DNA of 64,000 nt from positions 1 through 64,000 of the forward strand of contig JAEKLQ010000049.1 in the NCBI GenBank assembly GCA_019509785.1. Reading direction: 5' to 3'. The notes below the pieces were generated by a model, which worked only from the letters and a program-made list of their open reading frames with translations, did not search any database and had not been told where the DNA came from. Every line of letters begins with the position of its first letter. The stretch's first letter is position 1. Made by a program: the position numbers and the translations under genes. The DNA comes from Fibrobacterota bacterium. Lineage in GTDB: Bacteria > Fibrobacterota > Fibrobacteria > UBA11236. Shown in pieces: positions 54,250 through 58,298 of this stretch.

Positions 54250-55661
54250 AGGCCGGGTTTAAAGGCCTGGGGGCTTTTTGCGTACTGGCCACGGCTCTGG
54301 CTTCAGCCCTTCCGACCGCGCCGGAACCGGAACGCAACGCGCCCTTAATCATGGAGAACGCGGATCGCTTCGAGGGGTACCGCAGCCGCGGCGAATACGT
54401 GCTGAGCGGGAAGGTCCGTTTCCGGCATGGCGAATTGCGGCTGGAGACCGAACGCGCCGTCTGGCAGAAGGACCGAAACATCGTCCTATGCGAATCGGGG
54501 ATGCGCATCACGCGCAATGGGGCCTTGCTGACCGCCGAACGCGGGACCTACGACAAGAGCCTGGGGCAGGCCACCGCCCAAGGGAAGGTGTTCATGCGCG
54601 ACAGTAGCGGCGAAGTTACCGCTACCGGACAGGGCATCGTCTATATGCGCTTCCGGCATCTGGCCACCTTGACGGGCGATCCCGAAGTGCGCCGTTTCTA
54701 CCCGAAGAAGGACTCGGCGAAGGCCGCCTCGGCCACCCCCGCGAAAGGATCGGCCGTTCCTACGAAGGACGCCGCCAAGCCGGCGTCGGCGGACTCGGAG
54801 GGCCCGGATACCTTGTCCATCAAGGGCGATGTCATGACTTACAACGATTCCGCGCGCATGGCCGTCGCCGACGGGCATGTCCGCATCGATCGGGACAAGA
54901 TGCACATCACCTGCCGCAAGGCCGAATACCATGAGACGGCGGATTCCCTTTTCCTGATCGGCGATCCGCAGGTGATCGTGGACGACAACCAGGTGAAAGG
55001 CGAAATCATGCGGCTGGGGATGCACGGCGAAGAGATCAAGAGCTTGCTCGTGAAAGGGAAAGCCCAGGCCCACTCCTTGGAGCCCGCCACCGATTCCAGC
55101 GTCGCCCGCCAATCGGACGTGAAGGGCGATAGCCTTTTCCTGGCCTTCAAGGAGAAGGCCATCGACAGCGTGCAGGTTTTCAAGAACGCCAACGGGGCCT
55201 ATTTCGACGTGGACAAGCCCGATTACGTCAATAAGATGAGCGGCGACTACATGGTGCTGCGCTTCGCGGGCAAGCAGGTGGCCAGCGCCAACGTGCTGGG
55301 AGGTACGGCGGGGGCAGCCAAGAGCACCTATTATCATTTCGAGCGGAAGTCGTTGAAAGGAAAGAATGACGCCGAAGGCGACACCATCGATTTCGCCTTC
55401 AAGAACGGCCGCGTGGATGAGGTGCTGGTGAAGGGTACCGCCAAGGGAACCTATTTCGGCGAAAAGCAGAAGGCGCAAGGCACGGCATCCGGATCCGCGG
55501 ATTCGACCGCCTCTCCGGGAGCGAAGCCTAGCGCTCCGCCTCGCGATAGCTTGCGGGCGGTCCCCCGCCTACCGGCGACGGCTCCCGTACACGCGCCCAT
55601 CCGCCCGACGCCGGGAGGCAACGAGCCGCCCGGCAACGGCGCTCCGAGAAAGGTGAACTGA
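54246..55661 (+). CDS. lptA: LptA/OstA-like LPS transport protein with two OstA regions
   Basis: A 471-aa exported protein (signal peptide 'GLGAFCVLATALASALP'), far longer than the ~185 aa of E. coli LptA. The first OstA region (~33-150) has 'MENADRFEGYRSRGEYVLSG' and 'LLTAERGTYDKSLGQATAQG'. An Ala/Lys/Pro linker (~150-185) leads to a second region ('SIKGDVMTYNDSARMAVADG', 'ITCRKAEYHETADSLFLIG', 'AYFDVDKPDYVNKMSGDYM'). A Pro-rich tail ends the protein. The family forms a periplasmic bridge for LPS to the outer membrane. Gene order lptC-lptA-lptB supports the call. Symbol is used for the position and family. Confidence 0.8.
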   Translation: MKAGFKGLGAFCVLATALASALPTAPEPERNAPLIMENADRFEGYRSRGEYVLSGKVRFRHGELRLETERAVWQKDRNIVLCESGMRITRNGALLTAERGTYDKSLGQATAQGKVFMRDSSGEVTATGQGIVYMRFRHLATLTGDPEVRRFYPKKDSAKAASATPAKGSAVPTKDAAKPASADSEGPDTLSIKGDVMTYNDSARMAVADGHVRIDRDKMHITCRKAEYHETADSLFLIGDPQVIVDDNQVKGEIMRLGMHGEEIKSLLVKGKAQAHSLEPATDSSVARQSDVKGDSLFLAFKEKAIDSVQVFKNANGAYFDVDKPDYVNKMSGDYMVLRFAGKQVASANVLGGTAGAAKSTYYHFERKSLKGKNDAEGDTIDFAFKNGRVDEVLVKGTAKGTYFGEKQKAQGTASGSADSTASPGAKPSAPPRDSLRAVPRLPATAPVHAPIRPTPGGNEPPGNGAPRKVN

Positions 55662-56383
55662 TGCAGATCATGGCCGAGTCCCTGGTCAAGATTTACAACG
55701 GCCGTCGCGTAGTGGACGGCGTGAGTTTCCACGTGAACCAGGGCGAGGTGGTGGGATTGCTCGGGCCCAACGGGGCGGGGAAGACCACCTCCTTCTACAT
55801 GATCGTCGGCATGATCCGCGCCAATGCGGGGAACATCCGCATCGGCGATGCGGACGTTTCGCATATGCCGATGTACAAGCGCGCCCGCCTGGGCGTAGGC
55901 TACCTTGCCCAGGAAACATCGGTGTTCCGCAAGCTCACGGTGGAGGAAAACATCCTCGCCATCCTGCAGACCCGGAAATTGTCGCGGGCCCAATGCCGGC
56001 AGGAAACCGATCGCCTGATGGAGGAATTCCACATCGCGCATTTGCGGAAGCACCGCGCCAACACCCTTTCGGGCGGCGAACGCCGCCGCCTGGAGATCGC
56101 CCGCGCCCTGACCACCAACCCGAAGTTCCTCCTGCTCGACGAGCCTTTCGCCGGCATCGACCCCATCGCCGTCGAGGACATCCAATCGGTTATATTTAAC
56201 CTCCGGGACAAAGGCATGGGCATCCTTATCACCGACCATAGCGTTCGGGAAACCCTGGCCACCACCAACCGGGCTTACATCATGTTCGAAGGCAAGGTAT
56301 TGGTGGAAGGCACGGCGGAACACCTCTCGCGCGACGAAGAAGCGCGCCGCATATACCTCGGCAAGTCCTTTTCCCTGGGATGA
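55661..56383 (+). CDS. lptB: LPS export ABC transporter ATPase LptB
   Basis: A 240-aa ABC ATPase. Walker A 'GPNGAGKTT' (35-43), Q-loop 'YLAQETSVF', signature 'LSGGERRRLEIARAL' (136-150), Walker B 'FLLLDEPFAGIDPIAV' and switch His in 'ITDHSVRET'. The 'FAGIDPIAVEDIQ' and 'DHNVRETL'-like sequences are characteristic of LptB, which powers LPS extraction with LptFG. Its start overlaps the upstream stop by one base (TGATG). lptF and lptG are not in the window. The stop is followed by a large nested palindrome. Confidence 0.95.
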   Translation: MQIMAESLVKIYNGRRVVDGVSFHVNQGEVVGLLGPNGAGKTTSFYMIVGMIRANAGNIRIGDADVSHMPMYKRARLGVGYLAQETSVFRKLTVEENILAILQTRKLSRAQCRQETDRLMEEFHIAHLRKHRANTLSGGERRRLEIARALTTNPKFLLLDEPFAGIDPIAVEDIQSVIFNLRDKGMGILITDHSVRETLATTNRAYIMFEGKVLVEGTAEHLSRDEEARRIYLGKSFSLG

Positions 56384-56387
56384 TCGA

Positions 56388-56550
56388 ATGGGTACCTCTA
56401 ATCGTGTCTTCCTGCCTGCGGCCGGCTGCGCGAGCCGGGGGCTGCGTCATGCTCAGTCGCGATATTCTCCGAATATCGCTCCTTCCCCTTCCTTGCCCGC
56501 GGCTCGCTCGCACGGCCTCGGCTATGGAATCCACGATTAGAGGTACCCAT
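56388..56550. repeat. Large nested palindrome filling the lptB-rpoN gap
   Basis: Outer arms are a perfect 19-bp inverted repeat: ATGGGTACCTCTAATCGTG at 56388-56406 and its reverse complement at 56532-56550. After a 2-nt internal mismatch the stem continues (TTCC 56409-56412 with GGAA 56526-56529). Middle arms pair imperfectly (GGCCG 56420-56424 with 56513-56517; TGCG 56427-56430 with 56509-56512; CGAGCC 56431-56436 with 56501-56506; GGGC 56439-56442 with 56495-56498). The centre is a perfect 9-bp hairpin GCGATATTC-TCC-GAATATCGC (56459-56479). The right outer arm includes AGAGG, the likely rpoN ribosome binding site. It could be a MITE/REP-like element or a transcript-level control hairpin. 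Confidence 0.85.
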
Positions 56551-56552
56551 AC

Positions 56553-58298
56553 ATGAATTTCGGACTCGATCTGAACATGAACGTAGGGCTGGAGCAGAAG
56601 CTCTCGCCCCAGATGATCCAATCTCTCAAGCTCTTGCAGATGAATTCCATGGAGCTGGAGCTGGTGGTCAAGCAAGAGCTGGAAACTAATCCCCTGCTGG
56701 AGCCGACGGAAGACGACGAGCCGCAGCAGGAGGCGGCGCCCGACGACGAAGTGGCGCAGGCCGAAGAGCGCGTGGCCGAACCGATCGTCGAGGCCCCGAG
56801 CCCCGAGACCGCCGAGGAGCGGGAGTCGCAAACCAGCCCCGCGGAGGCGGAGCTCGACAAGGTCATCCCCGAGGATACCAAGGACAAGAACGAAATCGAT
56901 TGGGAGACCTATCTCGAAGACGGTTTCGATCTGGGCGATAAGCGCACCGAGGAGCTGGAAAGCCCGGATGAACGCTTCGAGAAGGTTCCCGTCTATTCCA
57001 AGACCCTGCAGGACCACCTGCTCGGGCAATTGCAGGATCGCACCATCCCGGCCGAGGTGGAGCCCCTGGTGGAATACCTGATCAACAGCTTGGATGAGCG
57101 CGGTTACCTCGTGCCCGAAAGCAAGATCGAGCCCGAGCCGGAGGAAGAGGAGGACGATGACATCATCGGTAAGCCGGCCGCCGCGAATCCGGCTTCGCCC
57201 GACCCGGTGCGGAAAGCCTCCGAAGCGCGTGCCTTAGCCGCTTCCTTGGACCATGCCTCCGACCCTTCCGACCGGAAAGGAGCGGTGAGGCTTCGTCCCC
57301 AGTCGGTTGCGCCCGAGATCGCCGAACCCATCGTCAAGGAGATCCAGGCCATCATCGACGGTTCCCTCGATCTGGATGCCGCCTCCCCCGAGGTACGGGA
57401 GGCTCTCCACGTCCTGCAAAGCCTCGATCCCGCCGGCATCGGCGCGCGCAACCTGCGGGAATGCCTTCTGCTCCAGATCTACCGCTATGGAAGGGTGAGC
57501 CCGCTGGCCAAGCGCATCGTCGAGGAGGAGTTCGAACTCCTGGAGAAGCTGAAGGTCGCCGCCATCGCCAAGAAGTTCGATCAGCCTCCTGAATTGATCC
57601 AGGCCGCCATGAAGGAGATCGGCGGGCTCGAGCCGCATCCCGGCCGCCAGGTGAGCGCGAGCATGGCCAATCCCATCACCCCCGATCTTATCGTCGAGGA
57701 AGTGGATGGCGAACTGGTGCTGATGCTGAACGATCGGACGGTTCCCTCGCTCAAGGTTTCGCGCGCCTACGCGGAACTCCTCAAGAAGGGCAGTAAGGCC
57801 AGTACGGAAGAGAAAAAATACGTACGCGAGAAGCTCAACTCCGCCACCTGGCTCATCCGCGCCATCGAGCAGCGCAAGTCCACCATGCTTAAGGTGATGC
57901 AAGCCATCATCGAGAGCCAGCCGGATTTCTTCAAGGAAGGGCCCACGCATCTGCGTCCGCTCATCTTGCAGGACGTGGCGGATAAGATCGGGATGCACAT
58001 CTCCACGGTCAGCCGGGTGACGAACGGGAAATACGTCCAGACCAGCCACGGCATTTTCGAGCTGAAGTACTTCTTCACCGCCGGCGTAACCCAAGCCGAC
58101 GGGCGGGAAATCTCCTCGGTTACCACTAAGGATGAAATCAAAAAGCTCATCGAGTCGGAGGATACCAAACGGCCCCTGAGCGATCAGAAAATCGTCGAGA
58201 TCCTTAAGGCCAAGGGTTTGGACGTGGCCCGCCGGACCGTGGCCAAATACCGGGACCAATTGGAAATCCTGCCGGCGCGATTGCGCAAGCAATATTGA
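56553..58298 (+). CDS. rpoN: RNA polymerase sigma-54 factor
   Basis: A 581-aa protein. Region I opens 'LNMNVGLEQKLSPQMIQSLKLLQM' (as 'GLEQKLSPQMIQSLKLLQ' in ~12-29), needed for enhancer-dependent activation. An acidic, variable region II (~50-200) follows, longer than usual with Glu/Asp/Pro-rich sequence. The core-binding and DNA-binding regions contain 'LQSLDPAGIGARNLRECL', 'MHISTVSRVTNGKYVQT' (helix-turn-helix) and the RpoN box 'ARRTVAKYR' (~559-567). ATG 56553 lies right after the nested palindrome, whose right arm supplies AGAGG. The order lptB-rpoN-hpf is conserved in many diderms. Confidence 0.95.
   Translation: MNFGLDLNMNVGLEQKLSPQMIQSLKLLQMNSMELELVVKQELETNPLLEPTEDDEPQQEAAPDDEVAQAEERVAEPIVEAPSPETAEERESQTSPAEAELDKVIPEDTKDKNEIDWETYLEDGFDLGDKRTEELESPDERFEKVPVYSKTLQDHLLGQLQDRTIPAEVEPLVEYLINSLDERGYLVPESKIEPEPEEEEDDDIIGKPAAANPASPDPVRKASEARALAASLDHASDPSDRKGAVRLRPQSVAPEIAEPIVKEIQAIIDGSLDLDAASPEVREALHVLQSLDPAGIGARNLRECLLLQIYRYGRVSPLAKRIVEEEFELLEKLKVAAIAKKFDQPPELIQAAMKEIGGLEPHPGRQVSASMANPITPDLIVEEVDGELVLMLNDRTVPSLKVSRAYAELLKKGSKASTEEKKYVREKLNSATWLIRAIEQRKSTMLKVMQAIIESQPDFFKEGPTHLRPLILQDVADKIGMHISTVSRVTNGKYVQTSHGIFELKYFFTAGVTQADGREISSVTTKDEIKKLIESEDTKRPLSDQKIVEILKAKGLDVARRTVAKYRDQLEILPARLRKQY

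Follow-up and report, generated by a model that had tools for sequence, protein, structure and literature searches.

Bacterial MITEs normally have conserved ends around a dispensable middle. The ends of Correia elements are conserved, and ERIC/IRU sequences are imperfect palindromes with conserved ends and a terminal TA motif. RNase III is documented to cleave the Correia elements (CREE/NEMIS) of Neisseria, which are also documented to have promoter effects (PMC10969869, PMC2229807). The 127-bp ERIC/IRU repeat of enterobacteria is cotranscribed with neighboring genes and affects mRNA stability (PMC2229807), and the Chunjie MITE of Geobacter uraniireducens is described as an intra-operon insertion that also has partial copies at other places (PMC10969869). 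A literature search for a prior description of the fold-back family reported here returned only general MITE literature, and the family, which is found across the Fibrobacterota, is apparently undescribed so far.

A nested palindrome fills the gap between lptB and rpoN in the 64,000-nucleotide stretch of a Fibrobacterota contig analyzed here (the window). Upstream lies lptB, encoding an ABC transporter ATPase (positions 55661 to 56383), and downstream lies an intact rpoN, encoding sigma-54 (positions 56553 to 58298); both genes were assigned from Pfam domains, and they and the parts of the palindrome described next are on the plus strand. The original prediction of a giant nested palindrome, with perfect 19-bp outer arms, an imperfect GC-rich middle, and a perfect 9-bp inner hairpin, was borne out by the inverted-repeat coordinates, with a strict extent (56388 to 56550, 163 bp) slightly narrower than first proposed. 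The inverted repeat formed by 56388 to 56412 and 56526 to 56550 is 92% complementary. Its outer 19 bp pair perfectly, the left terminal inverted repeat (56388 to 56406, ATGGGTACCTCTAATCGTG) with the right one (56532 to 56550, CACGATTAGAGGTACCCAT), and imperfect pairing of the left arm continues to 56412. Between the arms is a conserved core of 109 bp (56414 to 56522), itself an imperfect palindrome, in which GC-rich middle arms (56420 to 56442 and 56495 to 56517) form an imperfect inverted repeat with 78% complementarity. At its center, the two arms of the inner hairpin (56459 to 56467, GCGATATTC, and 56471 to 56479, GAATATCGC) are 100% complementary over 9 bp around a loop of 3 nt, and the left of these covaries in relatives (helix 6). 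The RNA-folding check proposed with the original prediction gave −103.9 kcal/mol for the palindrome region, compared with a mean of −67.4 kcal/mol for shuffled sequences (z, −7.73), and none of 200 shuffles folded as well; the arm pairing score was 21, the highest among shuffles being 13. At 163 bp, below the 500-bp MITE limit, the element is too short for a transposase, and the overlapping open reading frames of at least 90 amino acids are only antisense shadows of the neighboring genes.

Five same-genus relatives (G001 to G005) have only 6 to 22 bp between lptB and rpoN, with no palindrome, and we therefore conclude that the whole 163-bp unit was inserted here; with the palindrome taken out, the junction in the window reads TGA-TCGA-AC-ATG, a gap of 6 nt. 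The criterion set beforehand, under which many genomic copies would favor a mobile repeat, points to such a repeat here. In a DNA search, the central ~105 bp turned up at six other places in the genome, at 84 to 90% identity, a covariance-model search recovered the same seven core copies, that of the window included, and a broader covariance model added an eighth (L206). More copies are present in same-family genomes, with 13 cores in G006 and 21 in G009 by covariance model. Since it is multicopy, has empty sites in relatives, is bounded by terminal inverted repeats such as DDE transposases use, and matches one end of an insertion sequence (IS) exactly with its arm, the palindrome is very probably a copy of a non-autonomous DNA transposon (a fold-back MITE) inserted in the few-base lptB-rpoN junction. 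Four observations detailed below speak against this: the window copy shows no clear target duplication, no complete partner IS was recovered, the arm occurs only once in this genome, and the family conserves its interior instead of its ends. This agrees with the miniature transposable element that had been among the original proposals, and sister copies add short A/T target duplications to their terminal inverted repeats. The companion proposal of a REP-like element, in the RAYT sense, was not supported, and REPIN/RAYT was rejected as a candidate: the Y1 (RAYT) transposase (PF01797) is absent from this genome (G000), as well as from G003, G005, G006, and G009.

Occupied and empty sites were also found at other loci. 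A copy lies between parA and parB in G009, where relatives have an ATGA overlap; nuoA-nuoB and trpG-trpD carry copies in G006 and are empty in other genomes; and a tatD-like gene has a copy in G009 and an empty site elsewhere. The rimP site is occupied in this genome and empty in G005 (GATTCCAGGAGATC). The rimP gene was hit independently in two genera (L015 in G000 and L199 in G006), at different positions and with different arms. At the empty rimP site of G005 both 25-bp arms are missing, and because they are foreign there, the arms must travel with the element. This result bears on the suggestion that template switching at the hairpin copied flanking target DNA in inverted form to give the arms. 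Two copies in G009 would fit such an origin. In L173 (parA-parB), the left arm is complementary over its outermost 5 to 9 nt to the native start of parB (TGGCTCAT/ATGAGCCA), and there is a duplication of GATGAG, features that plain insertion does not explain; in L178, the end of the neighboring coding sequence (KRID stop) serves as the left arm, and the right arm is short and complementary to it. Apart from the missing arms at rimP, however, arm types recur across families and target duplications lie outside the arms, and we consider template switching extremely unlikely as the source of the arms.

The terminal inverted repeats of the ~160-bp elements fall into at least four recurrent sequence types that are shared across families. 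By inspection, we assigned type A/F (CAGGGTGTTGAAAAAGTC or CAGGCTACTAAAAAAGTC), B-like arms (GAGCCCCTAAC, GAGCTTGTCCATAAATAA, GAGCCTATCCGTAAATAG, and GAGCCTGTTTGAAAAG), type C (GGGNACCTCTAA), and type D (TCTCATAAATGG). Type C comprises the window copy, L202, L188, and many f7-family copies, and the left arm of the window copy is homologous to the arms of L202, L188, and L290 to L309 and to the IS end of L343 to L345. Elements with perfect arms stay constant in length, at about 161 to 163 bp, while the arm sequences vary. Arms were scored as present in 43 of 80 copies (pairing score of at least 12, the shuffled 99.9th percentile being 12); many copies in G006 and G009 consist of the core without long arms, and solo ends and internal-deletion derivatives are common. 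Target duplications are of 3 bp in type B (7 of 8 copies) and of 4 bp in type A (4 of 5) and type C (6 of 13). With 3 bp taken for types B and D and 4 bp for types A and C, lengths that were picked after viewing the flanks, type-consistent duplications occur in 18 of 30 aligned copies compared with 7.6 expected from permutation within types, and none of 20,000 permutations reached this number. When all arm types were pooled and tested for 3-bp duplications, significance was not reached (9 of 30; P = 0.12). The window copy, flanked as AAT|GGGTACC...GGTACCC|ATA, has no clear target duplication, only AT/AT.

Several observations concern end types outside the core-containing elements. L126 and L144 (in G003 and G001) represent a 120-bp element with type A ends (CAGGGTGTTGAAAAAGTC) and no core, flanked by TTAG or CTAA duplications. 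Another MITE, in G062 (L321, L331, L340, and L352 to L359), has type C ends around an unrelated interior (TTCGTCCTTCGACAAGCTCAGGACGAACGG ... inverted); because it shares the ends but not the interior, one end type must carry different interiors. The CCCTAAC/GTTAGGG of the B-type arm resembles the RYYYAAC...GTTRRRY of integron attC sites, but arms A, C, and D do not, and an attC identity of the element was rejected.

An insertion sequence of a related genome, G076, has an end with exactly the sequence of the window copy's arm (GGGTACCTCTAA). At three contig ends of G076 (L343 to L345), the IS end (GGGTACCTCTAAAAATTCAT), with its matching terminal inverted repeat, is followed by a TTGACA/TATATT-like promoter, a Shine-Dalgarno sequence, and the start of an open reading frame, ATG GGA CAG ATA GGC TTC TTT GAT, so that the transposase sequence comprises its first 8 codons only. 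From this N terminus (MGQIGFFD), the IS is probably of the IS5 type. No complete autonomous IS with the matching end was recovered. The type C arm has no other occurrence in the genome of the window, and the mobilizing element is therefore absent from this genome or unassembled in it. A transposase encoded elsewhere, probably by the IS5-type IS with end GGGTACCTCTAAAAATTC in the relative, would recognize the outer arms and move the unit in trans.

The core is present in 21 of 168 Fibrobacterota genomes, representing 14 genera, and the core of the window copy matches the covariance models with E values of 8.7e-19 (own-genome model R1) and 5.2e-21 (R2). Scanning 84,980 species for the exact pattern gave 26 matches, and the Fibrobacteria records among them were confirmed by the covariance model. 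The possibility that the matches outside the Fibrobacteria are due to chance was largely upheld, the covariance model supporting only one of them: an intergenic hairpin in a contig of Rathayibacter tanaceti (L067:4815-4924) that matches the core model with 41 bits (E value, 1.2e-6 in 189 kb) and has different arms. Within G012, near-identical copies (L273 to L281, L361 to L362, and L379 to L381), many of them cut by contig ends, suggest a recent high-copy amplification. Cores without long arms follow the same proA-like gene in two species (L184 in G009 and L197 in G006), which suggests old copies that were inherited vertically.

Aligned copies of the core show strong covariation. In an alignment of 79 cores that was fitted to the covariance model, pairing holds for 91% of cells, double changes occur at 27 of 28 pairs, and covariation scores 0.618, compared with 0.05 to 0.08 for slid partners. 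A model-free MAFFT alignment of 40 copies likewise revealed compensatory changes in 23 of 26 predicted pairs. RNA helices normally carry an excess of G-U pairs. In the core, G-T pairs are no more common than A-C mismatches (37 and 55, respectively, of 2,199 cells; 16 and 18 in a second alignment), and because the covariation is almost exclusively Watson-Crick, the structure appears to be maintained as DNA and not as RNA, given this general expectation for G-U pairs. Among 40 divergent copies, there is no variation at the unpaired T14 and C16 or at the T that lies opposite. Since some unpaired positions are thus fixed, mutation-driven palindrome repair is unlikely to be the sole cause of core conservation.

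These properties would also suit an independent module of structured DNA, attC- or REPIN-like in acting as a single-stranded hairpin, that was captured by, or itself captured, the terminal repeats of several ISs. In different families, one core is combined with four or more arm types, some of its unpaired positions are invariant, its covariation is Watson-Crick only, and many cores of G006 and G009 lack long arms. Nevertheless, no link to a tyrosine or Y1 recombinase was found, the target duplications agree with DDE transposition acting on the arms, and mobility of solo cores would have to be assumed; we regard an independent module as rather unlikely. A broader formulation, to which we give similarly little credence, is a phylum-wide mobile module whose folded DNA core, invariant at certain unpaired bases, is recognized by some protein, and which repeatedly exchanges the terminal repeats of different ISs; if so, one core rides many transposases, landing at operon junctions with portable ribosome-binding sites. 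In the fold-back MITE, the 109-bp core is the part that the family conserves. It probably persists as a hairpin or cruciform in the DNA, whether through selection for a DNA structure recognized by a protein or through palindrome-correcting replication.

Placement of the copies relative to genes is not uniform. Eight of the armed copies between codirectional open reading frames are in sense orientation and two are antisense, and other copies lie between divergent genes. Six sense copies lie exactly at operon gene junctions, before rpoN, parB, nuoB, trpD, a tatD-like gene, and within a response regulator/kinase pair; the genes other than rpoN are presumably these, having been named by recognizing their translated sequences. 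Uniform orientation of six copies has a chance of 1/64 per direction, for a set that was noticed and not sampled blindly, and the sense bias at operon junctions is accordingly treated as a lead. In most junction copies, a Shine-Dalgarno-like sequence in the right arm precedes the start codon by 5 to 9 nt. The AGAGG originally noted in the right arm of the window copy is indeed present, as an element-supplied AGAGGT (56539 to 56544) located 8 nt before the rpoN ATG, where it would function as a Shine-Dalgarno sequence. The type C right arm can supply such a motif because ACCTC in one arm means GAGGT in the other. The simplest reason for sense-oriented, Shine-Dalgarno-supplying junction copies is survivor bias: an insertion that abuts a start codon and brings its own Shine-Dalgarno sequence would survive more readily.

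Folding was originally expected to hide the rpoN ribosome-binding site, and the models agree. With the element in place, the predicted unpaired probability is about 0.00 for the Shine-Dalgarno sequence and 0.06 for the rpoN ATG, compared with mostly 0.5 to 0.9 for the ATG in relatives. When the footprint of a ribosome at the lptB stop was forced to be unpaired, the Shine-Dalgarno sequence opened in part, at best to about 0.4 to 0.8 for its last bases, and rescue by a ribosome terminating at lptB was rejected on this basis. From this predicted occlusion of the Shine-Dalgarno sequence and start codon, the element should strongly disturb rpoN translation, which would be lowered or would need a helicase, RNase III, or a ribosome to open the fold; if Correia and ERIC elements are a guide (PMC10969869, PMC2229807), rpoN expression could be reduced or its transcript processed by RNase. 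RpoN identities are 76 to 80.5%, like those between relatives, and do not show faster RpoN evolution after the insertion.

The occluded start codon, the strong RNA fold, and the sense orientation of all six junction copies could be taken to indicate a cis-regulatory RNA, an attenuator or translational switch that sets sigma-54 relative to lipopolysaccharide transport by hiding the rpoN Shine-Dalgarno sequence in the right arm. Against such a device, none of the five same-genus relatives examined has the palindrome at this locus, copies elsewhere precede unrelated genes or are antisense or between divergent genes, an Rfam search matched no family, and the core has no G-U signature. Prediction in the window copy yielded no promoter, including no sigma-70 promoter, and no terminator, there being no G+C stem with a following T run, so that an intrinsic terminator/attenuator or promoter was rejected as well. 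Because of the empty sites, the copy number, and the lack of G-U pairs, the regulatory reading falls and is very unlikely; the sigma-54/lipopolysaccharide switch of the original prediction is thus not upheld as an evolved device. The window element is not a dedicated sigma-54 switch, and a by-product effect of the fold-back MITE on rpoN is plausible from the folding models. Striking palindromes before regulators such as rpoN may be recent insertions and not evolved switches. For a selfish element, carrying a ribosome-binding sequence of its own is a way to become established at zero-gap operon junctions of important genes.

The conserved interior and swapped ends of this family are the opposite of ordinary MITEs: the middle is conserved across at least nine families and the ends are replaced. 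This implies either that the folded core has a function under selection or that replication keeps palindromes perfect. The probable IS5-type IS shares with the window element the exact end GGGTACCTCTAA and an A/T-rich short target, but the window element encodes no transposase and contains a 109-bp core of its own. Like the Fibrobacterota element, REP/REPIN sequences with RAYT are extragenic inverted pairs that can fold as single-stranded DNA; the Fibrobacterota element differs in its much longer arms, its target duplications, and the lack of a RAYT in this genome. The Chunjie MITE is 235 bp long with conserved terminal inverted repeats, and no phylum-wide structured core is mentioned in the part of its description drawn on here (PMC10969869). 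Correia elements are likewise non-autonomous, 100 to 160 bp long, bounded by terminal inverted repeats, and transcribed with their neighbors, with RNA stem-loops possible (PMC10969869, PMC2229807). Compared with ERIC/IRU, the Fibrobacterota element differs in sequence and has TTA/TAA/YTAR duplications and several end types, and in contrast to Correia elements, its ends differ between copies and lineages, no sigma-70 promoter accompanies the window copy, and it is the interior that is conserved.
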